A stretch of 64,000 bases of DNA. Source: Marinicella meishanensis. GTDB lineage: Bacteria > Pseudomonadota > Gammaproteobacteria > Xanthomonadales > Marinicellaceae. Positions 6,172-45,761 of the stretch are shown here, in pieces. A program made the position numbers and the translations under genes. Position 1 is the first letter of the stretch; the number at the start of each line of letters is the position of its first letter. The notes beneath the pieces were generated by a model. It saw only the letters and a list, made by a program, of their open reading frames with translations. It was not told where the DNA came from and searched no databases. Location: the NCBI RefSeq assembly GCF_019931145.1, contig NZ_JAIOUV010000004.1, forward strand, positions 310,001 to 374,000, written 5' to 3'.

Positions 6172-7095
6172 ATGAAATTGCACACAAAATCATTGATGAA
6201 ACGGCTGCCGATCTGGCTGGGCCTGGTCTTGGCGGCTGCAACCCAAGCCCAATCCCTGCCACCCCATGAGCCGCTGGATGTGCTGATCGTGTCTGATGAA
6301 GTCAACCCCCATGGCTTGGCCGATGCCGACTTGATGCAACCGGGTGACTTATCACAAACCTTGAGCCAAACCACGGCCCTGAACAGCCACATCATTTTGG
6401 AAATAGACACCAACGACATTGAGTTGGCCACCGCTGCCTTGAATTTACCGGTCGGGCATGTGGACCGCCCCGAGGTGTTGATTTATTTTGCCCACCGCAT
6501 TCCCAACAACGGCAACAACGCAGCCGGTCGCCAGGCGGCTTTCGTCAGTGCCGTGGACAACTTCTTACAAACCGGTGGTGGGGTGATCAGCTTTCATCAC
6601 GGCATTTACCTGACCGGCGGCAAACAAGGCATACAGGATTTATTGGGCTCACAAGCCACCGGCGCGGTGCCCTGGAACACCGTCAACGGGCAAGACGTGA
6701 TTTTTGTCGGTGGCAACCATTTCATCGGCACCCATGAGATCACTTATGCCGGCACCACCACCTATGGCAACCCCGGCCAGGGCATTCCCACGGCCAACTA
6801 CCCCTATTTCAACAACACCCCGGATGAGCGCTATCCCCAAATGGATTTCAACAGCGGCAACAGCGGTTGTGAGATCGAGCCTTTGTTCCAGAGCAACTAC
6901 AGCGACAACGGCAACCAACACCTGCTGGGTTACACCAAGTTGTGCCCCGGCTGGACCGCGCCGGTGATGGTCTATCAACCCGGCGAATACCAGCCCAATG
7001 CCACCAGCGGTAACAACCTGCAGATCCTGCTCAACGCCATCTACCACCTCAGTGATTTCCGTTGGGATGTGATCTTTCGCACCACGTTTGATTGA
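6172..7095 (+). CDS. Secreted ThuA-like protein with D-[VLI]-I-F-x3-F-[DE] C-terminal tail
   Basis: The N-terminus MKLHTKSLMKRLPIWLGLV, ending in ATQAQS, is a signal peptide. The body resembles the ThuA class I glutamine-amidotransferase-like fold: DVLIVSDEVNPHG near the start, VLIYFAHRIP, and GGGVISFHHGIYLTGG at ~residues 135-150. ThuA-like proteins are often linked to sugar or trehalose metabolism or are of unknown function. The C-terminus ends DVIFRTTFD, matching tails on four other secreted proteins in this window. It stands alone between the his cluster and a small membrane gene. The fold is moderately sure, the substrate unknown. Confidence 0.72.
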   Translation: MKLHTKSLMKRLPIWLGLVLAAATQAQSLPPHEPLDVLIVSDEVNPHGLADADLMQPGDLSQTLSQTTALNSHIILEIDTNDIELATAALNLPVGHVDRPEVLIYFAHRIPNNGNNAAGRQAAFVSAVDNFLQTGGGVISFHHGIYLTGGKQGIQDLLGSQATGAVPWNTVNGQDVIFVGGNHFIGTHEITYAGTTTYGNPGQGIPTANYPYFNNTPDERYPQMDFNSGNSGCEIEPLFQSNYSDNGNQHLLGYTKLCPGWTAPVMVYQPGEYQPNATSGNNLQILLNAIYHLSDFRWDVIFRTTFD

Positions 7096-7217
7096 GCTGA
7101 CTTACGTCATCTAATGCGCGATATTAAAGATGATGAAACACGCCTCATTCATTGATTGATCAATGGAACAAGTGTTCATGACAAATGGCACTATGACTGT
7201 GTTGGCAAACCAGCAAA

Positions 7218-7616: not shown

Positions 7617-7683
7617 TCTGATCATGGCCGCTTATCGACTTGGTTCAATTTTCGGTTTGACTCGACCACCGTGAAGGATGTGA

Positions 7684-7738
7684 TTTTTTGCACTGCTCTT
7701 GCAGTGTCAAAAAAACCGGGCTCAGGGCCCGGTTTTTG
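7684..7738. terminator. Two tandem bidirectional terminator hairpins
   Basis: The first hairpin is CACTGC-TCTT-GCAGTG at 7691-7706, flanked by TTTTTTG and CAAAAAAA. The second is AAAAACCGGGC/GCCCGGTTTTT at about 7711-7736. Both have T-runs on either strand and lie between convergent genes ending at 7616 and 7761, so both directions can be terminated. Confidence 0.85.
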
Positions 7739-7760
7739 AGGCTTTGTTGATAGACCGCTA

Positions 7761-9161
7761 TTATTCAAAATCGTCGGCAAAAATCAGATCTTCCACCGTG
7801 TTCCAACCAATGTCTTGGAACAACTGCAAGGTCAGGTCGATTTCATCAAAAATGGTGGGGGTGATGCTCGGCTCCATCAACAGGTTCGGGTTGGCGTCGC
7901 GGGTGAAGTGTGACACCGAGGAACCTTGTTCAAATGGGTTCGGCGCATACAGCCGCACAAAGCCACCATTGGCACCAGCAAATTGGCCGGTGTCATAACC
8001 CAAGGTCACATTGACGCCCGGCAAGTTGCCCGTGATCAAAGCCCCATCGTCCAACGAAATACCGACCGAAGGAATGGTCACGGCAGGATCCGAACCACCC
8101 ATGGGCGGCAAACCTGGGGACACGTTGTTGGCCACCAACACCGCCACCGCACCGGCGTTTTGTGAATTAATCACTTTGAGGGTGAAGTTACAGCTGCCTC
8201 GATTGACAATGGCAATGGCACCGGTCAAGTCATTGATGATCGGTTCACAAGCATCGTTCACATCGCCACCGGTGCCGTCATCTGCCAGTACCACATCGGC
8301 GGTCAATCCCATTTCTGGAATGGCCGGACCAAAAGAAGCCGTTTGAACCGCATAGTCACCGGCAATACCGCCAGGAGAGTTAATGGTCAACACCGCGGGA
8401 TTGCCCAACACATTGGGAAATTCAGCGGTGACGTTGGGACCGGTCCAAACCAAGTTGGGGTCATTGATGGCCGAGGCCACACGTTCGGCATTGTCCATAT
8501 CGACCCACTGCTCACCGGTGCTCAAATCACGCATGAACAAGGTCCAAATGTCTGGTCGACCAGAAAAGAAGGCGCCGGTGGTGCCACTGGTGAAGGTTTG
8601 GAAGCCCAAACCATGACCCATTTCATGCAACAACACCGGTAAGAATGCGGTGAAGCCTTGTGGTGTGGCACCGTCCAAACCGTAGTACCAACCACTGTTC
8701 AAACAACCATTGTCCAACTCTGAGTTGAATTGGGAGTTGATTTCAGCTTGGGCACCATTGACATCAACACCGGCCAAAGAGCTGGCCAATGATGGGTTGT
8801 ACCACGTGTCGGCCACCGGTGCATTGGCGAAATCCGCATGCACACTGGCGGCACCGGCCGAACCCAAGACCGCGCCGTTTTGGCTACAAGTCAAGGGATT
8901 GAATGCGGCATTGACCACAATCTCAACATCGCTGTCCAAGAAGGTTTCCCAAATGTCAGCCGCTCTTTGGAAGGCGATCAAACGCTGTTCACCCAAAGTG
9001 GTACCGGTGTTGCCACCAATCGGCGCCACTGGGGTGGGGTCATTGAATCCTTCACCGGCACCATCGGTGTTGTTAATGGTGATGGTGGCTTGGCCAAAAG
9101 CCGAACCACAGGTCATCAGGGCCAACAAGGCCCATGGGGTGCGTAGTTTCAACTGACTCAT
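7761..9161 (-). CDS. Secreted zinc metalloprotease with inserted PA domain and DLIFADDFE tail
   Basis: The signal peptide is MSQLKLRTPWALLALMTCGSAFGQ, read as a Sec signal cleaved after FGQ. The HEMGHGLGF zinc-protease motif is at residues 179-187. A protease-associated (PA) domain follows at roughly 255-370 (AIAIVNRGSCNFTLKV, NAGAVAVLVAN, IPSVGIS). A metzincin-like region SHFTRDANPNLLMEPSI near 420 likely supplies the third ligand and active-site turn. The extreme C-terminus is EDLIFADDFE, the shared tail. It is probably an extracellular or surface protease. Its start overlaps the stop of the upstream 110-residue secreted protein by 4 nt (ATGA on the minus strand), so the two are co-translated. 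Confidence 0.85.
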   Translation of the reverse strand: MSQLKLRTPWALLALMTCGSAFGQATITINNTDGAGEGFNDPTPVAPIGGNTGTTLGEQRLIAFQRAADIWETFLDSDVEIVVNAAFNPLTCSQNGAVLGSAGAASVHADFANAPVADTWYNPSLASSLAGVDVNGAQAEINSQFNSELDNGCLNSGWYYGLDGATPQGFTAFLPVLLHEMGHGLGFQTFTSGTTGAFFSGRPDIWTLFMRDLSTGEQWVDMDNAERVASAINDPNLVWTGPNVTAEFPNVLGNPAVLTINSPGGIAGDYAVQTASFGPAIPEMGLTADVVLADDGTGGDVNDACEPIINDLTGAIAIVNRGSCNFTLKVINSQNAGAVAVLVANNVSPGLPPMGGSDPAVTIPSVGISLDDGALITGNLPGVNVTLGYDTGQFAGANGGFVRLYAPNPFEQGSSVSHFTRDANPNLLMEPSITPTIFDEIDLTLQLFQDIGWNTVEDLIFADDFE

Positions 9162-22883: not shown

Positions 22884-24226
22884 TGGAAGCCTGGTGGGCT
22901 TTGTTGTTGTTTGTGGCCGTCACCGCGGTGTTGATGGCCGGCTTTCCGGTGGCTTTCACCCTCGGCGGGGTGTCCTTGTGGTTTGCCCTGATTGGCTTTA
23001 TGACCGGTTGGTTTGATGCCGATTTCATTGCTGCACTGCCCAATCGCCTCAATGGCATCTTGAGCAACGCCACCTTGATGGCGGTGCCGGTGTTTGTGTT
23101 CATGGGCGTGGTGTTAGAAAAAGCCAAATTGGCCGAATCCTTGCTGCAAAACATGGCCGCCCTGCTGGGCTCTCGCCCAGGCGGCTTGGGCTTTGCCTTG
23201 TTGATTGTGGGCATGTTGCTGGCCGCCAGCACCGGTATTGTCGGGGCCACGGTGGTGACCTTGGGCTTGTTGGCCATGCCGGTGATGCAAAAGAACGGGT
23301 ATGACCCGGCACTCTCAGCCGGCACCATATGTGCCTCAGGCACTTTGGGACAGATCATTCCCCCGTCGATTGTGTTGGTGTTGTTGGGCGATGTCTTGTC
23401 CAATGCCTACCAACAAGCCCAGTTGGAACTGCAGGTGTTCAATCCCAAAACCGTGTCGGTGCAAGACCTGTTCATGGGCGCGCTGATTCCAGGCTTGTTG
23501 TTGGTGTTGTTGTATGCTTTTTACTTGTTTTGGGTGCGTTGGCGCCGACCCGAGGCGATGCCGGCCATGGCTACCGCGGAACGGCCACCTTTGGGGCAAA
23601 TTCTGCGTTCATTGATGCCGCCGTTGTTTTTGATTTTGGCGGTGTTGGGCTCCATCATCAGTGGCTTCGCCACCCCCACCGAAGCGGCTTCGGTCGGCTC
23701 CATGGGTGCCTTGCTGCTGGCCGCCATCAATGGCAAATTATCGGTGTCCATGCTGCGCGAAGCATTGCAAGAAACCGTCAAAGTGACTTCCATGGTGTTC
23801 ATGATCTTGATCGGTGCCGCTTTGTTTTCATTGGTGTTCAAAGGCTTTCGGGGCGATGAAGCGGTTCAACATTTTTTGACCAACCTGCCTGGTGGTGAGT
23901 TAATGGCTTTGCTCTTGGTGATGCTGATCCTGTTCTTATTGGGGTTCATCCTGGATTTCATTGAGATCACTTTTGTGGTGATTCCGATCGTGGGACCCAT
24001 CCTGTTGATGATGGGTTATGATCCGGTGTGGCTGGGGATCATGATCGCCATCAATCTACAAACTTCATTCCTGACCCCACCATTCGGCTTCGCCTTGTTT
24101 TACTTGCGCGGAGTCAGTGACATCAGCACCAAAGCTTTGTACAAAGGCGTGATGCCATTCATTGTGCTGCAACTGTTGATGCTGGTGGTGTTGTATCACT
24201 ATCCGCAGCTGGTCGATTTGCTCTAA
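22883..24226 (+). CDS. TRAP transporter large permease (DctM-like)
   Basis: The 447-residue protein has ~12 hydrophobic segments with DctM signatures: AGFPVAFTLGGVSLWFALIG, LMAVPVFVFMGVVLEKAKLAE, STGIVGATVVTLGLLAMPVM, GTLGQIIPPSIVLVLLGD, ATPTEAASVGSMGALLLA. It carries out sodium-driven uptake of an organic acid or related solute together with DctQ and a periplasmic binding protein not present here. It is followed by a 345-bp gap. Confidence 0.92.
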   Translation: MEAWWALLLFVAVTAVLMAGFPVAFTLGGVSLWFALIGFMTGWFDADFIAALPNRLNGILSNATLMAVPVFVFMGVVLEKAKLAESLLQNMAALLGSRPGGLGFALLIVGMLLAASTGIVGATVVTLGLLAMPVMQKNGYDPALSAGTICASGTLGQIIPPSIVLVLLGDVLSNAYQQAQLELQVFNPKTVSVQDLFMGALIPGLLLVLLYAFYLFWVRWRRPEAMPAMATAERPPLGQILRSLMPPLFLILAVLGSIISGFATPTEAASVGSMGALLLAAINGKLSVSMLREALQETVKVTSMVFMILIGAALFSLVFKGFRGDEAVQHFLTNLPGGELMALLLVMLILFLLGFILDFIEITFVVIPIVGPILLMMGYDPVWLGIMIAINLQTSFLTPPFGFALFYLRGVSDISTKALYKGVMPFIVLQLLMLVVLYHYPQLVDLL

Positions 24227-24571: not shown

Positions 24572-26371
24572 ATGAAAACCTATATTCTGATCGTTGGTAC
24601 ATTGTTGAATTTGCCCGTTTGGGCAGGTCAACGTTTTGAATTGGAGCGCCAAAAATCCTTCAATAAAACAAGCTCTGGAAGCTTTGTAACCGTGGGTGCA
24701 GATGCTGCCTGTGACTTCCAAATAGGAACCCTATCGTTACAAGATGCAGTCGATGCGGACCCCACAGAAATCAGGTTGGCCTCCAACACCACCTACGCTC
24801 CGGTGAGCATTCGAGGAGCTACTTTTCTCAGTACAGTGATCGGAGGTTTTGCCAATTGTACAGATGCTGCCAATAACATCATCAGTGCTGATCGATCCAT
24901 CATCGCCGGCACCAACAACGATGCTGTCATGCTGATTGAGGACACCAGCATCAATCTGGCCAACATCCAATTCACCAATGGCCTGATTGGTCTTGAAGTC
25001 AACCTGATCAACACATCAGCAGAAATATTTGTCGACAACGTCATCACCAACTTCAATGAACAAGGGATACTCTTAGAAAACGCCAGTGGTGCGCCTGGCT
25101 TATATTTCTTTGCTGAAGACCTGAAGAGTCACAACAACATCAATACAACTCGATTTGGCAATGGGCTGCAATGCATAGGCACTGGCAATGGAGTAGGCAA
25201 CACCGAGGCCGTGGTTGTAGGCGACTCTGGCTTTTACAACAACACTTCTGCTCTAGGCGGAGGGGTGTCACTGGAAAACTGTCGGATGTTGTTGGTTGGT
25301 GGTGACCACACTGACAGCACAGTCGGCATCCGAAACAACACGGGTCAACAAGGTGGCGGTGGCATAGTAGTCCTTGGTTCAGATGCCACATTTGTTGGCA
25401 TCGGCAGTACACAAACAATCGGGGGAATCACGTATGGTAACAACCTGGGACCGTTGATCATCAGTGGCAATCAAGCCAATGTAACTGGGGCTCGATTTGG
25501 TGGTGGAATATTAATTGGAGCCTCAGCCAGTGTTCAAATGTCAGCCGTGGCTCTGTTTGCCAATCAAGCCCGCAGGGGTGGTGGAATTTATAGCTCAGTT
25601 AACACTCAGTTATCAATCTTCAAACCAACCAACTGTTGGTCTGCAATCAATTGCAACTTCATTGGACTCAATGAATCGACCGAAGCCGGTGGGGGCCTGT
25701 TTGCCATCAACGAAGCCAAAGTAGAAATAGGCCACACCCGATTCAGCCAAAACCGAGCTTTGCGAGGCGTGGCCGCCTTGATCAATGGCCAAAACACCGA
25801 ATTTTATCTTGAAACAGTTTTGATTGATCAGAACGGTGATGCCGGCCAAAACGGGTTCTCCGATGATACCATCCTTACCATTGAAAACAACGCTCAATTA
25901 GAAGCCAAATTCATCACCGTCATTGATAACAACAGCGTCAATGAAGTGATTCAGTCCAACAATGCATCATTGTTATCTCTTGAGGCATCATATTTATACA
26001 ACCCCAATGGGGGTCCATTTTTAACTATTTTGGGCAATGACACCAGCAGCCTGAGCTGTCTGATTCTGGATGACAGCAACAACCTCCCAACTGATGGTTT
26101 TTTGATGTCAGACACGCAGTACAGCAATGCATTCGTCAATCCAGCGGCAGGTGACTACCGCACCTTACCTGGAGCTTTGGGAATTGACTATTGTCAACCT
26201 CCAACCATGCCCTTGTTGACCGATGTCAATGATCACTTCCGCGGCTACGATGATCCCAATGTTGTTAACCAGAACAGCAGTCAATTCAATGTTTACGACA
26301 TCGGTTTTCATGAAAATTACTCGTCTGACATTATTTTTGAAGATGGCTTCGAGCCGATAAACACAGACTGA
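24572..26371 (+). CDS. Secreted right-handed beta-helix protein with DIIFEDGFE tail
   Basis: A short signal peptide (MKTYILIVGTLLNLPVWAGQ) is followed by a ~540-residue beta-helix of the polymorphic outer membrane type: SNTTYAPVSIRGATFLSTVIGG, then repeated GGG-rich turns (ALGGGVSLENC, QQGGGGIVVLG, RFGGGILIG, RRGGGIYSS, EAGGGLFAINEAKVEIG). The C-terminus is SSDIIFEDGFEPINTD: the shared tail, here with six extra residues. It is probably a surface-exposed adhesin or polysaccharide-interacting protein. Codon choice is more AT-rich than in the first 24 kb. Confidence 0.8.
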   Translation: MKTYILIVGTLLNLPVWAGQRFELERQKSFNKTSSGSFVTVGADAACDFQIGTLSLQDAVDADPTEIRLASNTTYAPVSIRGATFLSTVIGGFANCTDAANNIISADRSIIAGTNNDAVMLIEDTSINLANIQFTNGLIGLEVNLINTSAEIFVDNVITNFNEQGILLENASGAPGLYFFAEDLKSHNNINTTRFGNGLQCIGTGNGVGNTEAVVVGDSGFYNNTSALGGGVSLENCRMLLVGGDHTDSTVGIRNNTGQQGGGGIVVLGSDATFVGIGSTQTIGGITYGNNLGPLIISGNQANVTGARFGGGILIGASASVQMSAVALFANQARRGGGIYSSVNTQLSIFKPTNCWSAINCNFIGLNESTEAGGGLFAINEAKVEIGHTRFSQNRALRGVAALINGQNTEFYLETVLIDQNGDAGQNGFSDDTILTIENNAQLEAKFITVIDNNSVNEVIQSNNASLLSLEASYLYNPNGGPFLTILGNDTSSLSCLILDDSNNLPTDGFLMSDTQYSNAFVNPAAGDYRTLPGALGIDYCQPPTMPLLTDVNDHFRGYDDPNVVNQNSSQFNVYDIGFHENYSSDIIFEDGFEPINTD

Positions 26372-26408
26372 ACATTCAGCCCAGACCCAATCCCATCAGG
26401 AGTTCACC

Positions 26409-28037
26409 ATGTTGTTAAGCCGCATCCTATTGGCCAGCTTGATCATTTTGTTTAAAGCCATACCGATTCATGCCTATGAGCTGGAAGAATTGATGGCCTC
26501 ACCTCGATTTGCAGCCGATCAAATTTCAGCAGATGGCATCCAAACTGCTTTGAATGATTTCAGACCTCAGGCTTCGTTCCTGGCATCTTCCGGGCACCGC
26601 AAGCCGCATGTGATTCATGACTTACAACAGTTTGCTTCATTCTGGCAAGAAACCATGCGACCGCATTGTTCCCGACTGATCAACACCTATGGGGCGGCCA
26701 TGCGGGAAAGTGATTTCAATGATGAGGCATTTTTAAACCTCTACAACCAGTTCCGGGATGCCTTCAACGACCCTGCTTTAAAACGATGTGAAGAATTCAA
26801 AACATCGATCGAAATCTATCTGAAAGAAGTGGGTGGAAACCGCTCATTACCAGCCATGTTCAACCGCTACCAATCAGCACTGGATTCTTTGGTGGCTGGA
26901 TCAGTTCTCACCAATTCCAAGGCATTTTCTGAACAAAGCAGTGATCGTTACACAGAAAGGATGAACAACCAGGCAACCATTCAGACCCACCTGATGTGGC
27001 TCCAGGCGTATCAACCTGACCACCCAAAACTGCTCTTGTGGCAACAGCAATTCGAAGACCTCAACATGAACTATGAAACCATTGCCAATAGTCTGGCCGC
27101 AGAGATGTTACCCAAATCCAGTTTGCCATTGGATTACCATGCCGATGACTACCCGGATGAAGCCGCAGCCGGCCAGGCGTTGCGGCAACAGATCGCAGCC
27201 CAGTTTGAACAACAGTTTGGCCAAGAAGCCTCACAGGTCATTTTGCGTGATGGGGGCCTGAAGCCTGCGAGAAGATTCATCATTGTGGATAACCTGCCTC
27301 AACTACAGACTTATCAGGCAATCCCGGTTGTGGTTGTTGTGAGGGTTAATGAAAATCTAATGTCCACCCACCGTGGCTGGTTTGAGCTTTTCAACAGTGA
27401 TCATTCCAGAGTGGTCTTATCTGACCGACAAAATAATTTTCAAGCGCCAAATACCGATCAAATGGTTCGGTTTCATCCAGAAAATATATCTTCAGATTGG
27501 GTGCCACCAACACAAATCCGGTTGCCTCAATTGAGACAAAAAGAGCCAATGGATGCAGATTTAAAAGGAGCACCCAATGCAATGAAGGTTCGTTCGACGA
27601 CATACTATGTTGGTTTAGTTTTTACTGTCATGGTCAGCCTTTGTTTACTCTTTGCACTGTTGTTTTTTATTATTAAGCCCAAAGCCTCACAACCAACTAA
27701 CCCCTCTTTGTCATCAGTCAGTGACTGGTACAAACTTGTGGTACTGATCGCACCTCATGCCTGTTTGGTCTTGCTTTTATCTGGTTTGGTTCAATTGATA
27801 TCTGGCTTGATACATATGAGTTTGGCGAACATACTTTGGGCTTTGATGCTTTTTGTCACCGGAGTGCTGCTGGTGCCTGAGGTCAGACTACCTGAACCAC
27901 TGAATCGGCCGACTTTCAGGCGCATCAAAGAGCACTTACAAAACTGGTTGTTGCGGTTACCCAAGTTATCCACGATCAAATACTCGTTGAGTATGATGGC
28001 ACTGTTGTTCAGTGGTTATATGATCTGGGCACTGTAA
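26409..28037 (+). CDS. Unknown exported protein with C-terminal membrane helices
   Basis: A 542-residue frame with a signal peptide (ILLASLIILFKAIPIHAYE), a largely alpha-helical, Gln-rich extracytoplasmic portion (residues ~25-390; QALRQQIAAQFEQQFGQEASQ), then about four hydrophobic helices after residue ~395 (YYVGLVFTVMVSLCLLFALL, LVVLIAPHACLVLLLSG, LWALMLFVTGVLLV, MMALLFSGYMIWAL). I do not recognise a family. It lies 37 bp after the beta-helix gene and may be in an operon with it, so a role in surface display of that protein is conceivable. It belongs to the same AT-rich tract. Confidence 0.7.
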   Translation: MLLSRILLASLIILFKAIPIHAYELEELMASPRFAADQISADGIQTALNDFRPQASFLASSGHRKPHVIHDLQQFASFWQETMRPHCSRLINTYGAAMRESDFNDEAFLNLYNQFRDAFNDPALKRCEEFKTSIEIYLKEVGGNRSLPAMFNRYQSALDSLVAGSVLTNSKAFSEQSSDRYTERMNNQATIQTHLMWLQAYQPDHPKLLLWQQQFEDLNMNYETIANSLAAEMLPKSSLPLDYHADDYPDEAAAGQALRQQIAAQFEQQFGQEASQVILRDGGLKPARRFIIVDNLPQLQTYQAIPVVVVVRVNENLMSTHRGWFELFNSDHSRVVLSDRQNNFQAPNTDQMVRFHPENISSDWVPPTQIRLPQLRQKEPMDADLKGAPNAMKVRSTTYYVGLVFTVMVSLCLLFALLFFIIKPKASQPTNPSLSSVSDWYKLVVLIAPHACLVLLLSGLVQLISGLIHMSLANILWALMLFVTGVLLVPEVRLPEPLNRPTFRRIKEHLQNWLLRLPKLSTIKYSLSMMALLFSGYMIWAL

Positions 28038-28189
28038 AATAATTGATGAGTTGCATGAAATGGGCAACCAATTAAGCCGCTGCTTGACTCATGGAATGCT
28101 CCACCATGACTAACCTTCAGAAGTCGCTACCAGTATTCAGATCATCCTCAGACCTTGATGTCACTGCCATGGTCACCTAAGATGATGTC

Positions 28190-30421
28190 ATGAAATTTCT
28201 GCTGTTTTTACTTCTGGTCAGCTTAAATTCCCTGGCCCATAACAAACAAGACTGCATGGATGCCAGCCGTCAATCCAAGAACAATGCCATGGCAGTGTGT
28301 GAGCTCGCCCTGCAAGAAAAAGATTTGAGTACCAATGATCAGTCAATCATTTTAATTACCCAAGCAGAATACCTGATCAGAAACAGTCGATTCGAAGAAG
28401 CAGATGGTTTGTTGGATCAAGCGTTCAATGCCAATCCAGAAATGTTGAAAAATGGCATATACAGATTGAATTGGTTAAGAATTAAAGGCAGTCTTCACGT
28501 CACAAAGGAAGCGTATTTAGATGCCCTGCCTTTTTATGAACAGGCATTGCAAGTTGCCAACCAAATGGCTGATCAGGCTCTGATTGCCAATGGCTACAAT
28601 GATTTGGGAGCCATCAACATTGAATTAGGTCGTTATCAAACAGCTTTAGAATGGCTGCAAAAAAGTTTGTCCATTCACCAACAAAAACAGGATCATTTCA
28701 GAACGGCCTTAACATTGGCCAACTTGGCGGAAGTATTTGTGTTGATAGATGAGCATCAATTGGCATTGACTTACTTCCAGGATGCCTATGATGCCCATGC
28801 CATCAACCTTCGGCAAAACCCAAGTCAAGAAGCATTTTATGATCCTTATATAGCACATGTTGAACAAGACATGGGACAACTCTTGATTGATTCAAAGGAT
28901 TACAAAAAAGCTGCCAACCGGCTTAAATCTGCTTTGCAGAAATATCAATCACATCAGATGGTCGCTCAACAAGTCAGGGTGTTAACGACCCTGGCTAAAT
29001 TGGATCTTGCTCAGCAACAATATCAATCAGCCATGACAACTTTAAATCAGGCCGTTGCTTTGGAAAAAACTTTACCCAGAGCCGAACACATCGAATTGCA
29101 ACTGACCTTGGTTCAAACATTGATTGAAACAGATCAACTTGTAGCAGCCAAAGAAATTGCCCAAAGTGGTTTAGCCATGGCCAGAGAAAAAACCAACTTA
29201 AAAGCACAAGCTGATTTTCTAAAATCTCTGGCGGTCATTCATGAATTTGACAACCAAATTGAAGCATCACTGGATTACCAAAAACAGTTTCAAACCATTC
29301 ACAACCAAGAGTTGAAACAGAAGTACAACCAATCACTATTACGCCTGCAGAATGAAATCGATGCTTCACAAAAGCAACGAGAAATTGCGGCATTGGCATC
29401 AGAAAAAGCCCAACAAGAAGTGACGCTTTTACAACAGCGGTGGGGACTCGCTGGGGCCAGCGTATTGCTGATTTTATTGTTTATTTATTTATACATTCAG
29501 ATTAAAAAGAAAAATTTGTATCGCCAACAGGCCCTGAGAGATCAAGCAAATCACAGCAAACAACTAAATGCGCTGTCCAATAAATCGGTTGATTTAGCCC
29601 TTGTATTAGAAGGGCTCAAAAGTCCCCTGATTTGTTTTGATTTTGCTGGCAAGATCCATCATCAAAGCCATGGTTTAAGCACAATCCAGGATCAAGACTC
29701 TCATGTTAAAAATGAACACCCTGACATCTGGATTGAAGTGATGAACAACCTCAATGAGGATGACCAACTGAACCAGGATTTGCTGCTGAAATCTGTTAAC
29801 CCAGAACGAATAGCTGCCTTGGCCAATCATCACGTGTGGATACATCAATTGAAGTTTTTCGAGGATTTGTTGGTGGCTGTTTTCATCAATCCGGTCGAAC
29901 CTGAACAGGTTGCGATCAGCGAAGCTGAAAAAATCAAACAGCACGGTGAATACCTCAATACCCTGTCCCGGCTGTGGCACACAGGCCAGAAACTCTCAGT
30001 TGATCAGATTGATCGCTTCGCTCCATTACTGGCTGCCATGAAAGTGCATCAACCAACCATCAAACATTCAGTTCTCAGCAATCATGACTTAAGGGTCATG
30101 GCCGTTGAAATCATGAATACCTGTGTTGATTACTGGGAAAAAAACACCGGTCAAGACCCCTTAGATCTCGCTGAAAAAAGTGGTTTGTGGCTTGTCAGCA
30201 TGCATGATGGGCGACTCAGGATAAGGACTTTAAATCGTTACCTTGATATCAAGAAACTGCCGGCCAATCCTCGCTGGAAACAGGTCGTCAAAACAGCACA
30301 TTTCATCTTATCGGCTTGCGAATTGAACATCAACCAAAGGTCCCACCTAAACCAGTTAACTGAGCAGTTTAAACGAACACTGCGCAACCAAACAAAATCC
30401 ATTAATCAACCTCAAGTTTAA
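28190..30421 (+). CDS. TPR-containing membrane-bound sensor-like protein without a visible output kinase
   Basis: The signal peptide MKFLLFLLLVSLNSLAHN is followed by tetratricopeptide repeats over residues ~40-390 (YLDALPFYEQALQVANQMAD, GRYQTALEWLQKSLSIH). A coiled-coil (SQKQREIAALASEKAQQEVTLLQ) leads to one membrane helix at ~420-440 (SVLLILLFIYLYIQIKKK). The cytoplasmic part has a PAS-like stretch (VLEGLKSPLICFDFAGKIHH) and a C-terminal module IMNTCVDYWEKNTGQ...SGLWLVSMHDGRLRIRTLNRYL. No HisKA, HATPase, GGDEF or EAL motif is visible. It resembles TPR-type two-component sensors that have a different output. The ATG has no strong Shine-Dalgarno. Confidence 0.7.
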   Translation: MKFLLFLLLVSLNSLAHNKQDCMDASRQSKNNAMAVCELALQEKDLSTNDQSIILITQAEYLIRNSRFEEADGLLDQAFNANPEMLKNGIYRLNWLRIKGSLHVTKEAYLDALPFYEQALQVANQMADQALIANGYNDLGAINIELGRYQTALEWLQKSLSIHQQKQDHFRTALTLANLAEVFVLIDEHQLALTYFQDAYDAHAINLRQNPSQEAFYDPYIAHVEQDMGQLLIDSKDYKKAANRLKSALQKYQSHQMVAQQVRVLTTLAKLDLAQQQYQSAMTTLNQAVALEKTLPRAEHIELQLTLVQTLIETDQLVAAKEIAQSGLAMAREKTNLKAQADFLKSLAVIHEFDNQIEASLDYQKQFQTIHNQELKQKYNQSLLRLQNEIDASQKQREIAALASEKAQQEVTLLQQRWGLAGASVLLILLFIYLYIQIKKKNLYRQQALRDQANHSKQLNALSNKSVDLALVLEGLKSPLICFDFAGKIHHQSHGLSTIQDQDSHVKNEHPDIWIEVMNNLNEDDQLNQDLLLKSVNPERIAALANHHVWIHQLKFFEDLLVAVFINPVEPEQVAISEAEKIKQHGEYLNTLSRLWHTGQKLSVDQIDRFAPLLAAMKVHQPTIKHSVLSNHDLRVMAVEIMNTCVDYWEKNTGQDPLDLAEKSGLWLVSMHDGRLRIRTLNRYLDIKKLPANPRWKQVVKTAHFILSACELNINQRSHLNQLTEQFKRTLRNQTKSINQPQV

Positions 30422-30662
30422 TGACATCAATCTTCAGTCATTCAATGGGCCGCTGCTGTCTTTTCATTCGCTTACAGTACCTCTCTTTATTGAAATGACT
30501 TGAATTGAAGTTCGTGGTGAACTGAGCTTTAAGTCAACAATGGTTTTCCCACAAGAATCCAATAAAATGCGTGATCTGACGTCAAGTAATCTTCATGAGA
30601 AGCACATCTGGCTGTCACATGAATGACTTAAACTGCCAACAATTCGCTGCTTAGAGGTTGTT

Positions 30663-31178
30663 ATGAAGCCCTTAGATTTGATTCAATCCATTGATACCTC
30701 TCTGGTTAACAAGTTGTTCTCAGCCCGCATGCATGGTAAATTGTTACCAACCTGTAAATTCATCTCTGCCATGGGGGATGGCTGGATGTACTTACTGGTT
30801 GGGCTGGCTGCCTTGATCCTCAATGGGATCGATCATGGATATTTTTGGGTGTTGAGTATGGCTTTTGCCATTGAGAGGCCCTGTTACTACCTGTTGAAAA
30901 ACTCGCTCAAGCGAAACCGTCCTTTTCGAATCTTGAACATTCAAAACCAGGTCAATCCCAGTGACCAATTCAGCTTCCCATCGGGCCACACCTCAGCCGC
31001 TTTCCTGTTCTTCACCGTCACCGCCGCTTGGCTGCCGCTGTTATGGATCCCCTTGTTGTTCTGGGCCACCACCGTCGGCTTGTCGCGGGTGGTGCTCGGT
31101 GTGCATTACCCCACCGACATTGTGGTCGGCGCTTTGATGGGGGTGGGATTGGCCCAACTGACCTTGCTGATGATTTGA
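30663..31178 (+). CDS. PAP2-family membrane phosphatase
   Basis: This 171-residue protein has the three PAP2 catalytic motifs in order: KNSLKRNRPF (KxxxxxxRP), PSGHTSA (PSGH) and SRVVLGVHYPTD (SRxxxxxHxxxD), with ~5 hydrophobic helices. It probably dephosphorylates undecaprenyl pyrophosphate or phosphatidic acid/PGP in the membrane. It ends 17 bp before the next gene, a glycosyltransferase, suggesting joint envelope work. The first half of the gene has AT-rich codons and the second half GC-rich codons. Confidence 0.9.
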   Translation: MKPLDLIQSIDTSLVNKLFSARMHGKLLPTCKFISAMGDGWMYLLVGLAALILNGIDHGYFWVLSMAFAIERPCYYLLKNSLKRNRPFRILNIQNQVNPSDQFSFPSGHTSAAFLFFTVTAAWLPLLWIPLLFWATTVGLSRVVLGVHYPTDIVVGALMGVGLAQLTLLMI

Positions 31179-31195
31179 TCACCCAGTCGGCGGGC

Positions 31196-32233
31196 ATGAA
31201 AATTTTGTATGGGGTGCAAGGCACGGGCAATGGTCACATCACCCGGGCTCGGGCCATGGCCCAAGCCTTGGATCGGCACCAATTCGAGGTGGATTACTTG
31301 TTTTCGGGCCGCCCCGAAAGCGACTATTTTGACTTGGCCTGTTTCAAACATCGCCGTTACAAGCGGGGACTGACATTCGTCATCTGCGATGGTCAAATCA
31401 AGTATTTGAAATCCGCCATGCACAACAACCTGTGGCAATTTCATCGGGACGTCAAAAACCTGGATTTAAGCCCTTATGACGCGGTGCTGTGTGATTTTGA
31501 ACCGATCACTGCCAGGGCTTGTCGCCGACAAAACAAACCCGCCATCGGCATTGGCCACCAGTATGTGTTCAATCACCATGTGCCGCAACAAAAACCCAAT
31601 TGGATCACCCGCCAGGTGTACCGCCGTTTCGCCCCGGTAACCGACGGCATCGGCATGCATTGGCATCACTTCCATGCACCCATTTTGCCACCCATGGTGG
31701 AACCGGTCACCACCACTGGGGCGAGGGCTGCAGACTTTGTGCTGGTCTATTTGCCGTTTGAAAACCAAAGCCACATACTGCGATTGCTGGCCCGCATAGA
31801 CCACCAGGAATTTGTGCTTTACACCCCGCAAGCAGTCATTTCACCGGCGCCTCATGTGCGGGTCAAACCGCTGTCCAGGGCTGGTTTTCAAGCGGATTTG
31901 TTGCGTTGCTCTGGGGTCATCGCCAATGCCGGGTTCGAGTTGACTTCCGAAGCTTTGAACTTGGGCAAAAGAATCTTGGTCAGGCCCTTGGATCGACAAT
32001 CCGAACAAATCTCCAACGCCATGGCCTTGGAACAATTGCATTATGGCCATGTCACCCAACACATGAATCAAGCCAGCATCGAGGCCTTTTTAATCAGCCC
32101 ATTGCGGGTCCAAGTGACTTTTCCCGATGTGGCAGATCACATCACCCGGTGGCTCAAAGCGGGAATGCCCAGCCGTCACAATGACTGGTACCAAGCCTTG
32201 TGGCACCAAGTGCGGGTCGATCGTCTGGGCTGA
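31196..32233 (+). CDS. MJ1255/VC2487-type glycosyltransferase
   Basis: Start ATG 31196 gives MKILYGVQGTGNGHITRARAMAQAL, the glycine-rich GT-B entry loop of this family. GIGHQYVF and VIANAGFELTSEALNLGKRILVRPL (donor-binding region near residue 240-265) confirm it. The longer frame upstream overlaps the PAP2 gene and is a shadow. The family transfers an unknown sugar; the pairing with PAP2 implies a lipid-linked or surface glycan. Confidence 0.87.
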   Translation: MKILYGVQGTGNGHITRARAMAQALDRHQFEVDYLFSGRPESDYFDLACFKHRRYKRGLTFVICDGQIKYLKSAMHNNLWQFHRDVKNLDLSPYDAVLCDFEPITARACRRQNKPAIGIGHQYVFNHHVPQQKPNWITRQVYRRFAPVTDGIGMHWHHFHAPILPPMVEPVTTTGARAADFVLVYLPFENQSHILRLLARIDHQEFVLYTPQAVISPAPHVRVKPLSRAGFQADLLRCSGVIANAGFELTSEALNLGKRILVRPLDRQSEQISNAMALEQLHYGHVTQHMNQASIEAFLISPLRVQVTFPDVADHITRWLKAGMPSRHNDWYQALWHQVRVDRLG

Positions 32234-40184: not shown

Positions 40185-42368
40185 TTAATCAAACGCATGG
40201 GCAAAAATCAAATCGGTGTAATTGTCCGCCCAGTGCCGCAACAAATCGCGAAACGCTTCGGCTTTGATGATGGATGGTAAATTTCCGGCCTGGTCCACTT
40301 GATTGACCCCGTGACAACCGCCACAGGCCCGAATTTCACCGGGTTGAAAGGTGATCCAATAGCGTTCCCGCACCACCGGCTCACCGGTAGGTGACAAAGA
40401 CTGCCAGCTCATGGCCCGACCGGCCGGCACAAAAGCCGCCACCGAACCATCCGGGTAAATCTCGGTGCTGCCTGGGGGGGCACCGACCAGTGGCAGGTTC
40501 TGGGTGGTGGCGTTGGCACTGTGCAGGTATTGGGCAATCACCCGTTGGCCAGGATCGGGGTTGGTGACCCCGCCATAACCACGCACTTGATCGCCTTGAA
40601 AAAATTGCATGTGCGACATTTCATACAAGGTGCCAGGACTGCCAATGGTTTGGTGCGGGCTGCCGGCCACTTTGAGGTTGTAAGGTTGTTGTAAATCCAA
40701 TTCATCGCGGGTGGTCACGTCCCGCATCACCACCACCGCCAATTGGTAATTGCGCAAAAAGGCTTTGAACGCATTGACGTCGACACTTTCTTCGGCAAAC
40801 ACCTGGGCTTCCGGATCCAACAACACTTCTTGGGTCATGGGTGGTACCGTGCGCGACACCACTTCCACCGGCGACATCTCCCACAAAGGGCCGGTGTAAC
40901 TGACCAACACATCGGGATCATAGTATGAAATGGTCACATTGCCCAAGCTGGTCAGGCGGTCGCTGGGCACCCAGTCATTGTTGCCATTGGGGGTCACTGA
41001 CTTGATGGTGAAATCATAGCGGGGTTGGGGGTTTGCTCGGGTGCCGTCATTCCCCGCCCGGCGGGTTTCGGCGGTGTGCACCGCCAACAGCTGACCGTCG
41101 TTGAGGGTCACCGGATCGCGGAAGAAACCCACATGTTCAGGCGGTGGGGTGTCGCCATCATCGACCACGTTGCGGGTGCTTTCATGGCTCAGGTAATCCA
41201 CTTGCACCAAGGAAGGGTCAGCCCCCAAGGGCAAATCAAAGGCAATCAATTGCCCCGCAGAGTGGGTGGCAAACTCCGGCGCATCGACTCCCACAAAGCG
41301 CCCGGTGTTGTTGGGGTCTTCGTCCATTTGAAACACGTTCAAGATGCTGTTTTGGTTGGGTCGTGGACTGACCCCGGCAATGAACTCAATCAAGTTGGGG
41401 TCGTCGTTCAATGAACGATTGAAATAGCTGTGAAACTCATGCCGACCCACGTGATTCAGGGTTTCTTCTTCGGTGCCGTCCTGATTCAATTGCCAAGGGA
41501 AAAAATGATTGATCCGATGCCCTTCCAAATTGGTGCCTTGCAACAGATCCAATTCAGCTGGCCGGGGTTCTGGAAACACCTCAGCCACGGTATCAATGCG
41601 CACCGCGGAAGCCCCTTCCCGGCTGTAATTGAATGCGCCATTGACATTGGTGGGTGAGGCTTGTTGATCCCGTTGCAGGTGATCCCAACGGGTGAACACC
41701 AGGCGACCGACTTGGTCAATGAAGGGGCTGAATGAGCCCGATGGTGAGTGCTGCATCAAACTGACTTGGCCGTCCTTCAGTTTCCACAAGCCGGTGTTGG
41801 TGGGGGTGGACTCGTACTCATCATATTGGGGATAATTGAAGCGGTCTTGGCTGCGAGGCATGTCTGAAGTGAAGATGATCGCATCATCCGACCCATAGAT
41901 TGGTGTGATGTTGTTGTAATCATTGGGCTGGCCGGGCACCAGACTGATTTGCACCGTTTGGCCTTGGCCCAAGCCGCTGACTTCATAGATTTGCCAATAA
42001 TAGTCATTGTATTGGAACTGCTCCGGCGCCCCAATGACCATGCTGAACAAAGCTTTTTGACCACCCCAGTGCACGTGTGGATCACGCACAGCAATGGCAT
42101 TTTCATCCTGCAAACCCACCACCCCATAGCCGGCTTCTTGGGTCAGGTTGCGCAGACTGCCATCGGGATAGCGGATGTACAGATCACCGCCGCGACCGGC
42201 GCTTTGCATGCTGCCTGAATGGTTGGCAAAAGTCGAGCCAATGGTGGCAAAATCTGCCGCAATGGGAAATTGTGTGACAAACATCACGGGGTTGCTGATC
42301 GACACCGAGCCAGCCAAACTGACGCCCGAGCAAACACACAACAACAGTCCAAATAATGAATTTTTCAT
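40185..42368 (-). CDS. Secreted HZS-alpha-like beta-propeller protein with a c-type heme motif and DLIFAHAFD tail
   Basis: The signal peptide is KNSLFGLLLCVCSGVSLAG. The body has TolB/PD40-like propeller repeats (RGGDLYIRYPDGSLRNLTQ, DDAIIFTSDMPRSQDRFN, RLVFTRWDHLQRDQ) and ends with ERYWITFQPGEIRACGGCHG, a CxxCH heme-attachment site at ~residue 680. This layout resembles the hydrazine synthase alpha subunit family, whose members outside anammox bacteria have unknown roles. The C-terminus is DNYTDLIFAHAFD, the shared tail. It would require export and heme ligation if the CxxCH is used. Confidence 0.75.
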   Translation of the reverse strand: MKNSLFGLLLCVCSGVSLAGSVSISNPVMFVTQFPIAADFATIGSTFANHSGSMQSAGRGGDLYIRYPDGSLRNLTQEAGYGVVGLQDENAIAVRDPHVHWGGQKALFSMVIGAPEQFQYNDYYWQIYEVSGLGQGQTVQISLVPGQPNDYNNITPIYGSDDAIIFTSDMPRSQDRFNYPQYDEYESTPTNTGLWKLKDGQVSLMQHSPSGSFSPFIDQVGRLVFTRWDHLQRDQQASPTNVNGAFNYSREGASAVRIDTVAEVFPEPRPAELDLLQGTNLEGHRINHFFPWQLNQDGTEEETLNHVGRHEFHSYFNRSLNDDPNLIEFIAGVSPRPNQNSILNVFQMDEDPNNTGRFVGVDAPEFATHSAGQLIAFDLPLGADPSLVQVDYLSHESTRNVVDDGDTPPPEHVGFFRDPVTLNDGQLLAVHTAETRRAGNDGTRANPQPRYDFTIKSVTPNGNNDWVPSDRLTSLGNVTISYYDPDVLVSYTGPLWEMSPVEVVSRTVPPMTQEVLLDPEAQVFAEESVDVNAFKAFLRNYQLAVVVMRDVTTRDELDLQQPYNLKVAGSPHQTIGSPGTLYEMSHMQFFQGDQVRGYGGVTNPDPGQRVIAQYLHSANATTQNLPLVGAPPGSTEIYPDGSVAAFVPAGRAMSWQSLSPTGEPVVRERYWITFQPGEIRACGGCHGVNQVDQAGNLPSIIKAEAFRDLLRHWADNYTDLIFAHAFD

Positions 42369-42529
42369 GGCACCCACACCTGATCCAAAGAACAACCATT
42401 GTAGGGCAAGACAGCGAAGCAAGGCGTGATCCATTGCTCAATCTACAAAATACCCAGTCATTTGGGTGTTTTGACGGTTTTTTATCACCGCTGGTGTATG
42501 CTGACGGTATTTATTGTGGAGCCTTGATC

Positions 42530-42718: not shown

Positions 42719-42738
42719 TCGAAATTTACAGCGGACAC

Positions 42739-42772: not shown

Positions 42773-42809
42773 GTTTTCAGCGCAACCAGGCAACCTGGTT
42801 GCGATTGGC

Positions 42810-45761
42810 TCACTCGAAGCCGTCTTTGAAGATCACGTCGTTGATACAACCTTGTACCGAGACGTCATCAATGTACCAACCTTCATCGCCCACCGCACTG
42901 TCGGTGCCGAGGCGGAATCGGAATTGAGCGGTTTGCCCAGCATAAGCATCCAGGTCAACCACCGCCACCACTTCCTGGTCGCCAGAAGCAGGCACGGCAT
43001 CGTCGGCACACCAAGCTTCCATGCCGGTGATGGCATTGGCGGGATTGGAGGTCACCAAGCCATTGTAAGGATCGGTCAACATCTTGGTGTTGTCAATCGG
43101 CACGTAGTTGTTGCCACCATCGGTGGAAATCTCCAACAGGCCAGCATCCCAACAGGCATCGCTGCCGGTGCCATTGAAGGCCTCCATGTTTTGGAAGTTC
43201 CAGAAGGACAAGGTGATGGGCGATTGATCAATGGTCGGGATGTTGATGCTCGGCGAGGTCAAGTACTGGTCCGAAGAGCTGGCCACATCGGTGGCTTTGA
43301 ATGAAGTCACACCCGAATTGAAACGCACCCCAGATTGGGTCCAAGTGCTGCCGGTACCGGACACAGTCCAGTCACTGACGTCACCTTCCATGTCATCGGC
43401 AAACGCGGTGTTGGTGGCAAAGGAATCGGCACAGACACCCGGTTCACCGGTGGTGAAACTGAAGGTGGCAGATGGCACGCTGTTGTCGCAGTTGTTTTGT
43501 GAGATCACCCGCCAATAATATTGGGTGTTGGATGCCAAAGAGGCCACCATGGCGTATGAGGTGGTGCCCGCTGTGCCGGTTTCAATGATGTTGGTGAACC
43601 CGGCATCGGTGGCCACTTCGATGCGATAGGACAAGGCATCACTGACCGCATTCCATTCAAACACCGGTCTGACACTGGTGCCCACTGCTGCATCGGCTGG
43701 CAAGCTCAAAGTGGCTGCCACCGGCGTGTCGATCGACACCTGCAAGTTCAAATCCAAAGAGCGGGACAAGTTGGGTGCCACCGAATCACCCAAAATGGAC
43801 ACCGCAAGCTCACTCACTCCGGCCTGATCCAAATCATTGAACGTGGCTGTGGTGGTGCTGGGGAAGCTGTTGACCGCGATGTTGGAAAATGACACCGAAG
43901 AGCCACCTGGCATGGTTGATGAAGACATGTTCACGGTGCCAGTAAAACCGCCCAGGGCATACAAATCCACATCCAAAGTCACCGCACCATCGGCCAAACA
44001 CACCGCCAGGTCGGTGGAATCTTCAGTTTCCACATAAAACTCAGGATTGCCACATTCGGGGAAGGTGAAAGAACAAATGCGGTTTTCCCAATCAACCGCC
44101 CCGGTGTTGGCAACGTATTCCACCGTCATCCAGAAGGTACATTGGTCCACCGGATCCACACTCATTGAGGAGTAATCACCCCAACGGCCGGCACGACCGG
44201 AACTGTCAACAAAGGTCTGCACCCCAGTGCCCACCACGCACGAGGCTTCAGAACGCATTTGGCCCGTGGGGTCATCACCGGTGCGGCCGGTGTAGCGCAC
44301 CGAGGGGAAGGTGGTTAAGCTGGACACCGAATAGGCCAAGCCCAGGTTGCGGTTTTGGTCGATCGAGATGGCGCCCATCCAACGGTAATCGTCATCGGGT
44401 GAAAACAAGCCTTCGTCGCGGATTTTGACTGAGAAATTATCCGCTGGCGAGCCGCCCAAGCCATCATAGCGCATGCTGAAGTTGACCCATTTAACCCCGG
44501 CGATGCCGTCACCGGCATCGGCCACGTGATTGATCGCCATGTCAATGGGCAAACCCGAAGCCGACGGATAGGCCCGGGCACTGGCGCGGTACATGGTGCG
44601 GCCACTGAAGTTGTCCAGGTTGGCACCGCTGGGGGCCGGGGCCGGTTGTGGTACGGTGTTCACCCCAGCACTGTAAATGTCACCGGCAGACAGGATGGTC
44701 GCTGCACTGATGGTGGAATTGGCTGGCGTGGTCCAATCCACACACAGGTTCCAAAACAAGTAAGCATCCAAGTCAGCCCGCGTGTGCACAAACGGGGCAC
44801 AGGTGTCACCGGCTGGCAACACGTCACCCTCCAGATGGGCGGGCAGAGCCCCATAAGCATGGGAGCCACCGCCTTGGACATTCTCAAAGCGCACGAACTC
44901 GGCTGGGTTTCCGGCGATCATTTCATCCCGCTCGACCACCGAGAAAGAAGCACCCAAAAAGGTGCTGGGCAGTTGGAAGTCATGGGTCACGAAGTAGTAA
45001 CCACTGCGGCTGCCATTTTCATCGGTCCAAATGCCGATGTGGGGGTAGTCATTGAAGACCCCGGGGAACTCAAATTGATAGCGGTTGAAGGTGACCGCTG
45101 GATCGGTGATGTCGGCCCGATCAGACACCGCAAAACATTGCGAACCGTTGGGATTGGAGCCAGATATGAATTGGCTGAAAACCCACACCTGGGCGGTTTT
45201 GTCGAACAACACAATGGGGTCACCGGCATTGTTGGTCTCACACGGACCGCCAAATCCAGCCCAGAAGGTGTTGCCTTCTTGCACCGTACCCACCAGATTT
45301 CCGGTGGCTTTTTCATAGATGGCCCAATCGGTGTTGATGTATTGCACATAATGGGTGGTGCCCACATCGCCATTGGTGTCGGGTGGTAAACCACCGCCCG
45401 GGGCATCACTTTGGCCGATGCCATCGAACGAAATGCCCACCGCGGGTACGTTGTTGATGCCGCGAAAATCCTGCACGCCCTCTGATCCTTTGAGCATGTC
45501 TGCCTGTTGGATTTTGGTGGGGTGCTCAGTGAAATTGGGGTACACATAATCGGCTGGCTTGAGGTTTTGGTTGACCAGCTCGGTGTTTTCTTGGGTCAGG
45601 CGGATCAGTTCCGGCAAAGGGGCAGATTTGTCATGCCGCACCGCGCGGCCGTGCTGCAGCACCGGGGCCGAGACCGATTGTTCATTTTTGGCGGAGACTT
45701 CCTGGGTTGGCGCCGCCAACAAGGCAGCCACGATGCCTGTCATCAAAGTTTTTTTCTTCAT
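42810..45761 (-). CDS. Large secreted protein with fibronectin III-like domain and DVIFKDGFE tail
   Basis: This 983-residue protein has a signal peptide (MTGIVAALLAAPTQEVSA). A ~550-residue catalytic- or propeller-like domain follows (GGGLPPDTNGDVGTTHYVQYIN, FNDYPHIGIWTDENGSRSGYY, GDDPTGQMRSEASC). Around residues ~700-790 is a fibronectin III-like domain (LSLPADAAVGTSVRPVFEWNA, NTQYYWRVISQNNC). A jelly-roll-like C-domain (DDMEGDVSDWTVSGTGSTW, GDEGWYIDDVSVQG) leads directly to the final NDVIFKDGFE. The domain before the tail resembles C-terminal ligand-binding sandwich domains of secreted peptidases. The catalytic function is not proven. Confidence 0.82.
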   Translation of the reverse strand: MKKKTLMTGIVAALLAAPTQEVSAKNEQSVSAPVLQHGRAVRHDKSAPLPELIRLTQENTELVNQNLKPADYVYPNFTEHPTKIQQADMLKGSEGVQDFRGINNVPAVGISFDGIGQSDAPGGGLPPDTNGDVGTTHYVQYINTDWAIYEKATGNLVGTVQEGNTFWAGFGGPCETNNAGDPIVLFDKTAQVWVFSQFISGSNPNGSQCFAVSDRADITDPAVTFNRYQFEFPGVFNDYPHIGIWTDENGSRSGYYFVTHDFQLPSTFLGASFSVVERDEMIAGNPAEFVRFENVQGGGSHAYGALPAHLEGDVLPAGDTCAPFVHTRADLDAYLFWNLCVDWTTPANSTISAATILSAGDIYSAGVNTVPQPAPAPSGANLDNFSGRTMYRASARAYPSASGLPIDMAINHVADAGDGIAGVKWVNFSMRYDGLGGSPADNFSVKIRDEGLFSPDDDYRWMGAISIDQNRNLGLAYSVSSLTTFPSVRYTGRTGDDPTGQMRSEASCVVGTGVQTFVDSSGRAGRWGDYSSMSVDPVDQCTFWMTVEYVANTGAVDWENRICSFTFPECGNPEFYVETEDSTDLAVCLADGAVTLDVDLYALGGFTGTVNMSSSTMPGGSSVSFSNIAVNSFPSTTTATFNDLDQAGVSELAVSILGDSVAPNLSRSLDLNLQVSIDTPVAATLSLPADAAVGTSVRPVFEWNAVSDALSYRIEVATDAGFTNIIETGTAGTTSYAMVASLASNTQYYWRVISQNNCDNSVPSATFSFTTGEPGVCADSFATNTAFADDMEGDVSDWTVSGTGSTWTQSGVRFNSGVTSFKATDVASSSDQYLTSPSINIPTIDQSPITLSFWNFQNMEAFNGTGSDACWDAGLLEISTDGGNNYVPIDNTKMLTDPYNGLVTSNPANAITGMEAWCADDAVPASGDQEVVAVVDLDAYAGQTAQFRFRLGTDSAVGDEGWYIDDVSVQGCINDVIFKDGFE

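Follow-up and report, generated by a model that had tools for sequence, protein, structure and literature searches.

A nine-residue motif near the C-terminus of unrelated exported proteins in Marinicella meishanensis and its co-occurrence with a type II secretion system

Five genes in a 64,000-nucleotide stretch of the Marinicella meishanensis genome (assembly GCF_019931145.1, contig NZ_JAIOUV010000004.1, positions 310,001 to 374,000; this whole stretch is called the window below) encode exported proteins that end in almost the same residues, a tail of the form D-[VLI]-I-F-x3-F-[DE] (Table 1). All five tails lie where the first-pass annotation had placed them, stop codon included. A search for [DN].IF...F in the six-frame, stop-to-stop open reading frames of at least 60 residues in the window returned exactly these five, with one residue between the match and the stop in four of them and six residues in the other. 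Here, the occurrence of the tail in the host genome and in other bacteria is described, and its possible connection with a type II secretion system (T2SS) is weighed.

Table 1. Tailed proteins of the window (coordinates are window positions).
Protein	Length (residues)	Gene	Strand	Description	Tail	Tail position	Signal peptide
P0001	307	6172..7095	+	exported	DVIFRTTFD	7066-7095, including stop	by heuristic
P0002	466	7761..9161	-	exported, metalloprotease-like, PA domain	DLIFADDFE	7761-7790	called by looser heuristics, missed by the stricter one
P0003	599	24572..26371	+	exported	DIIFEDGFE+PINTD	26327-26371	by heuristic; classed 'membrane' by one sorting scheme
P0004	749	40185..42434	-	exported, hydrazine-synthase-alpha middle domain	DLIFAHAFD	40185-40214	seen from an internal start only, not from the first start
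P0005	983	42810..45761	-	exported	DVIFKDGFE	42810-42839	by heuristic

P0001 gave no Pfam match and no match to PDB sequences. P0002 carries a PA domain (PF02225, 3.4e-17 in Pfam) and a partial match, under the cut-off, to the NCBIfam metalloprotease model NF038122. The predicted model of P0003 is beta-rich and of low confidence (mean predicted local distance difference test score, pLDDT, 58.6). The middle domain of P0004 was identified as PF18582 (1.7e-10), and in P0005 an InhA-like MAM match just under the cut-off was accompanied by a weak match to fibronectin type III (Fn3; E 0.002, under the cut-off). Among the folds assigned at first pass, PA-metalloprotease was therefore upheld for P0002 and fibronectin-III weakly for P0005; ThuA-like for P0001, beta-helix for P0003 and heme propeller for P0004 found no confirmation. 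No Pfam or NCBIfam match lay over the tail in any of the five proteins (NCBIfam E values up to 10, HMMER filters on), and the weak NCBIfam matches fall in other domains. Four aligned relatives of P0003 also end in the tail; these tails, and those of loci L135 and L163, are no independent evidence, because the loci were found by the tail pattern.

The whole host assembly (G000; 3.99 Mb, 15 contigs) was then searched for such ends, as the first-pass annotation had proposed. The motif D-x-I-F-x3-F-[DE], written as GAYNTNATHTTYN9TTYGAN, gave 73 matches against none for a reversed-pattern control, and a looser pattern that demanded a stop gave 59 against 4. The motif stands directly at the stop in 46 of the 73 and 1-11 residues before it in 25, so that 71 copies lie no more than 11 residues from the stop. 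The description of the motif as extreme C-terminal thus holds for nearly all copies, and fails for two that were kept within the total of 73. One is found within a linker of a signal-peptide-bearing protein (C8:411182). At C15:171183 (L106, minus strand) two tandem copies stand right behind the signal peptide, forming an N-terminal version of the tag, and the second of them is the other non-terminal match. The residues D, I, F and F are invariant by the search pattern itself. Position 2 is L in 49 copies, V in 15, I in 8 and F in 1; position 5 is A in 36 of the 73 and is followed mostly by D, T, N or S and then mostly by G or D; the final residue is E in 49 and D in 24. If the proteome is assumed to comprise about 3400 proteins, chance would give 0.008 such ends within the last 12 start positions, and this expectation, the control and the positions of the matches rule out a chance origin.

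The proteins that carry the motif are largely unrelated. With the tails stripped, the 70 proteins analysed fell into 44 single-linkage groups at E<1e-3, the largest with 10 members. All 73 of the 27-mers are distinct, the 30 bases on either side of the motif are on average 27-28% identical, and synonymous codons within the motif are mixed; the mixed codons and unrelated flanks indicate that selection acts on the peptide. The earlier argument that shared ancestry cannot explain the tails is borne out by these data. A hydrophobic 19-mer within the last 45 residues, as a terminal membrane helix would require, was found in none of the 70 tailed proteins, and among the 24 with an extension behind the motif only 2 have K or R there.

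The tailed proteins are also enriched in export signals. With a heuristic of our own, whose background rate is high, signals were called under the loosest criterion in 61 of 69 tailed genes, compared with 361 of 704 others (p=6e-10), and under the strictest in 40 of 69, compared with 191 of 704 (p=4e-7); all six criteria gave p of 1e-6 or lower. The background genes were drawn from the window, from a 400 kb sample and from stretches around tails; the sample was hand-picked outside the stretches already retrieved, proved tail-free, and served as background for non-tailed genes and codon use, not for tail density. A stricter first sorting of the 70 tailed proteins gave 53 sec or lipo, 6 membrane, 10 cytoplasmic and 1 unclassed. 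Eight tailed proteins failed the loosest criterion, four of them with a plausible signal peptide by eye and four without. The predicted enrichment among signal-peptide proteins was therefore seen, and the motif is neither equally common in cytoplasmic proteins nor confined by descent to one family. The tailed cargo includes a subtilase, a reprolysin-like metalloprotease, an endonuclease/exonuclease/phosphatase-family protein, an amidase, FG-GAP proteins and a DUF1501 protein. The last has a Tat-type signal, the only one among the tailed proteins, which fits a machine for folded cargo.

In other bacteria, a DNA pattern for D-L-[hydrophobic]-F-A-[ND]-G-F-E-stop returned 78 stretches from a one-genome-per-species collection. 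By record title, 58 of them are Lysobacterales, comprising Marinicella, Dokdonella, Pseudofulvimonas, Wenzhouxiangella, Pseudolysobacter, bins named Lysobacteraceae, Rhodanobacteraceae or Lysobacterales, and one Xanthomonas; the remaining 20 are titled Gammaproteobacteria (11), Proteobacteria or Pseudomonadota (6) and Alcanivoracaceae (3). The stretches hold 79 tails, of which 21 are cut at the 5' end and were left out of the signal-peptide count; 51 of the 58 with a complete 5' end pass the heuristic. Among these tail-selected stretches, the best relatives of P0002 (73%) and P0005 (67%) belong to Marinicella. Two Dokdonella homologues of P0005 have no C-terminal tail. In one of these two, from Dokdonella fugitiva (L176, 3363-6299), a DRIFADGLDG-like stretch is inserted inside the Fn3 region instead. 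This insertion and the copies just after signal peptides favor a short linear motif for which a free carboxyl end would not be required.

Two T2SSs are encoded in the host genome. The type A genes gspC, gspD, gspE and gspF lie in this order at about 118.6-124.1 kb of G000:C9, adjoining ftsE/ftsX-like genes, and a gspG for a canonical GspG lies at G000:C2:77523-77924. Type A C, D and F were confirmed by Pfam, and gspE was named from sequence appearance only. The type A GspC consists of T2SSC and PDZ domains. Type A GspL and GspM and most pseudopilins were not located in this genome. Type B lies on C8, where models support the identity of M, D and G, and the other genes were assigned by order only; its GspC/N-like protein has no PDZ match, a feature described for XpsC (PMC11981180). 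The secretin GspD (TIGR02517) was present in 50 of 51 chosen genomes, the miss being G018. The GspDs of tail-rich genomes divide into a shorter type, A, which shares 40-54% identity with the host's A, and a longer type, B, with about 24% identity to A; 26 GspDs were typed. One secretin of G143 (L228), 36% identical to A, fits neither type well and is perhaps Xcs-like. The Xps-like type B was considered as the partner of the tails and rejected, the eight GspDs of this type among the 26 being spread over tail-rich genomes (G000, G126, G111), tail-poor genomes (G143, G130, G142) and two genomes discussed below as exceptions (G075, G116).

The distribution of type A was compared with that of the tails in 151 genomes by a GspC (TIGR01713) search and a stop-independent tail pattern, which gives underestimates, since it finds only 48 tails in the host genome. 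Genomes with a GspC match at E<=1e-9, a threshold of our own, were counted as GspC-positive. At least five tail matches were found in 63 of 87 GspC-positive and 5 of 64 GspC-negative genomes (Fisher 1.6e-16), and the summed matches against control were 1914 vs 70 in the former and 176 vs 22 in the latter. When labels were shuffled within families, the observed association was reached in 3 of 20000 shuffles, or in 1 of 20000 with the window's family left out. In family f12 (22 genomes), the three GspC-positive genomes have 42, 25 and 12 matches and the 19 GspC-negative ones 0-4. In family f2, GspC-positive G111 has 15 matches and GspC-positive G086 has 0, against 0-3 in the 20 GspC-negative genomes. 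Smaller sets were hand-picked from the 151 genomes, namely 51 (GspD), 44, 16 (GspD-A) and 18 (GspG). A canonical GspG (E<=1e-52) together with a second one was found in all 10 chosen tail-rich genomes, and the weaker kind only in all 5 chosen tail-poor genomes; GspC, GspD and GspG are parts of one system and not independent tests. A co-occurring secretion gene, which the first pass had suggested looking for, was thus found in the canonical T2SS with a PDZ-bearing GspC. A PDZ region is present in all 30 best-scoring GspC proteins of the relatives, tail-rich and tail-poor, and the PDZ domain alone therefore does not predict tails. G018, a member of the same family as the host, has no GspD, no GspG, no GspC at the threshold and one tail match.

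Homologues from the two groups of genomes were compared at 30 DUF1501 loci. Among the 17 in GspC-positive genomes, the tail is present in 10 (some with changed residues), degenerate in 3 and absent in 4. The 13 in GspC-negative genomes comprise 1 with the tail (G088), 1 with a degenerate tail (G116) and 11 without, although these loci may be paralogues, because 10 of the 13 are only 27-30% identical.

The motif is therefore real, positioned terminally, convergent, enriched on exported proteins and co-occurring with type A. The best reading of these observations, and on balance a probable one, is that D-[LVI]-I-F-x-x-x-F-[ED] serves as a portable sorting motif, short and linear, through which folded exported proteins would be recruited to the type A T2SS. 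The proteins would first reach the periplasm by Sec, with a Tat-type signal in one case. The exposed motif, usually at the C-terminus and sometimes behind the signal peptide or in a linker, would then recruit the folded protein to the PDZ-GspC system, which would move it across the outer membrane. The general features of T2SS substrates are present, as most tailed proteins have a Sec or Tat signal peptide and the host encodes a T2SS. We infer that type A reads the motif, with GspC or GspD as the candidate receptor. These two are the usual suspects for binding, and the PDZ domain may be one option. Export of VesB was reported to depend on the EpsC PDZ domain, and a disordered Fn3 loop of PelI to bind the OutC PDZ (PMC12369372); Pel3 was described to use several flexible loops (PMC7949064). 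A canonical PDZ interaction with a free carboxyl terminus is unlikely here, because 1-11 further residues follow the motif in 25 of the 73 copies and some others lie away from the C-terminus. More tentatively, nine residues at almost any accessible end might suffice for the PDZ-GspC T2SS of Lysobacterales to take over a folded periplasmic protein; where a lineage lost this system, its tags would have been lost as well or left to decay.

Several observations weigh against recruitment to type A. The GspC threshold was set after the list had been seen; the curated cut-off is passed by only 21 of the 151 genomes, and the host's own GspC (88 bits) fails it. Borderline cases are G129 (3.7e-8), counted as negative, and G086 (5e-12) and G109 (5e-10), counted as positive. 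In family f8 the link is weak, with 14, 2 and 0 matches in GspC-positive and 0-8 in GspC-negative genomes. Outside the host genome, position was checked for a minority of the matches; in G043, 7 of 12 are C-terminal. Five GspC-negative genomes have at least five matches. G014 holds a GspD-A fragment, 86% identical; G015 has no GspD-A in an assembly that is 81% complete; G075 has 14 matches (positions unchecked) and no detected type A, yet its sister G087 has type A; and in G088 and G116 no close relative of the type A GspD was detected and GspG is represented by one weaker copy. Genuine C-terminal tails nevertheless account for at least 4 of 8 matches in G088 and at least 5 of 7 in G116. Conversely, 24 of the 87 GspC-positive genomes have fewer than five matches, 13 of them in genus g12 of family f9, and G140 has no tails though it shares a genus with tail-rich G132. 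With exceptions in both directions, type A is a trait shared by tail-rich genomes, but having it does not entail tails, and a genome that lacks it can retain them, as relics or through another route. Physical linkage was sought and dismissed: 3 tailed genes in 262 kb beside type A loci are no excess, and the cases in G021 (between gspF and ftsE) and G126 (next to gspC) are only suggestive. The low-confidence models of P0003 and P0005 are uninformative on the tail. In Vibrio cholerae, VesB was reported as the only substrate fully dependent on the GspC PDZ domain (PMC12369372), which speaks against this domain as a general reader and suggests that other T2SS components may be the reader. Another gene of the same distribution would also be compatible with the co-occurrence.

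The first-pass proposal of a sorting, secretion or surface-retention signal is supported by the terminal position, the unrelated bodies and the export enrichment, which do not divide secretion from retention. Under retention, type A would export its cargo by structural signals and the tail would dock the proteins to an outer-membrane receptor, so that the tag would be useful only together with the T2SS; the same co-occurrence data fit this alternative, which we regard as rather unlikely. It gains some weight from Wenzhouxiangella AB-CW3, which was reported to excrete no proteolytic activity while expressing 37 of 45 signal-peptide proteases and peptidases; the authors of that work presume that the enzymes are anchored at the outer membrane (PMC7691419). 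The genome in which the tag was seen is a Wenzhouxiangella bin. In V. cholerae, moreover, GlyGly-CTERM was described as giving membrane association, with a separate signal required for T2SS export (PMC13393428). Against retention, no candidate receptor was found in the analysis, the protease rhombosortase that processes GlyGly-CTERM does not track the tails, and the tail has neither a membrane helix (0 of 70) nor Gly-Gly.

The tag might also serve another machine distributed like type A, the T2SS link being a phylogenetic coincidence. The tails of G088, G116 and G075 without detected type A, the 24 tail-poor GspC-positive genomes, the weak link in f8 and the few families profiled all point that way, but the within-family shuffles (3 of 20000), the clear pattern in f12 and that of one genome in f2 speak against it, as does the repetition of the association for GspG (itself part of the same system), and this explanation appears clearly improbable. 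Shared ancestry or a spreading DNA cassette, which would make the tails remnants of one copied terminal domain, could draw on the paralogy of some tailed proteins (at most 10 of 70 in one group); it is contradicted by the 44 groups, the distinct 27-mers, the dissimilar flanks and the mixed codons, and is very hard to maintain. Hardly credible at all is a folding or stability element with no sorting role: a hydrophobic core with a terminal acid could cap a beta-sheet, but the bodies are unrelated, copies occur at either terminus and non-tailed homologues exist.

Compared with known sorting signals, a recruiting tag for type A would resemble GlyGly-CTERM, which acts with rhombosortase and the T2SS (VesB of V. 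cholerae). GlyGly-CTERM was likewise described as short, portable and C-terminal; it is carried by exported proteins of unrelated kinds in T2SS-bearing Gammaproteobacteria, and its many-to-one pairing was likewise seen by co-distribution (PMC13393428). GlyGly-CTERM has Gly-Gly, a membrane helix, a basic end and a need for a rhomboid protease, whereas the present tails are without a helix. The best rhombosortase score in the host genome is 44 bits against a cut-off of 84. Across the 151 genomes the cut-off is exceeded in 12, of which 10 have fewer than five tail matches, and it is narrowly missed, with 73-83 bits, by six tail-rich genomes of genus g3; rhombosortase as the partner was ruled out by this distribution. 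G116, one of the exceptions above, also has rhombosortase. Eight of the 12 rhombosortase-positive genomes belong to family f8, so that a C-terminal sorting route other than the tail may operate in the same order. PEP-CTERM with exosortase and MYXO-CTERM with myxosortase are, in the accounts available, likewise genome-wide C-terminal tags on dozens of unrelated exported proteins. PEP-CTERM contains a membrane helix. MYXO-CTERM is described as having a tripartite architecture and an invariant Cys, whereas the present tag is soluble; signatures of both were absent, with no C-terminal helix in the 70 tailed proteins and no NCBIfam match over the five window tails.

The C-terminal domain of the type IX secretion system (T9SS) is a folded outer-membrane secretion signal of about 70-80 residues in Bacteroidota. 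The present tag is C-terminal as well, but with nine residues and a home in Lysobacterales its membership is implausible by length and taxon. Substrates of the type I secretion system (T1SS) have an extreme C-terminal motif of an acid and hydrophobics and no Sec signal peptide. The likeness, an acid followed by hydrophobics, is superficial, as the tailed proteins mostly have signal peptides. The tag thus lacks defining features of GlyGly-, PEP- and MYXO-CTERM and of T1SS signals, and also of canonical PDZ ligands, whose motif stands at the free carboxyl end; here 25 of 73 copies are extended, and N-terminal and linker copies occur. The Pel3 and PelI loops and the Ig-fold of VesB are described as read by the same class of T2SS, partly via the GspC PDZ domain; these determinants are structural and protein-specific, unlike a nine-residue tail. 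Two papers of 2025 state that a universal T2SS signal, whether conserved or linear, is not known (PMC11981180, PMC12369372). Among the matches listed from the open-licence literature, with subscription papers and preprints outside its scope, no description of the tail was found. It resembles a many-to-one sorting tag but is soluble and nine residues long, and as a candidate linear T2SS signal we found no precedent for it.

Cargo choice by the T2SS is a long-standing open question. If the tail is a T2SS signal, point mutants and fusions of nine residues would make its recognition testable, sequence would reveal part of the exoproteome in many Lysobacterales, and a simple tag for secretion might be gained. 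As a retention tag, it would represent a type of surface-sorting signal that lacks a membrane helix, of which no description was found in the literature searched. Either way, about 70 proteins of one genome gain a common destination.

Two minor observations concern gene neighborhoods. In G021 (L230, 5776-18327), gspC and gspD are separated by an alpha/beta hydrolase gene, and gspF is separated from an ftsE-like gene by one for a tailed M14 carboxypeptidase. In the window, positions 24001-32000 have a G+C content of 0.46 against 0.50-0.57 elsewhere and hold tailed P0003 and two genes with signal-like N-termini; this low-G+C stretch was perhaps acquired.

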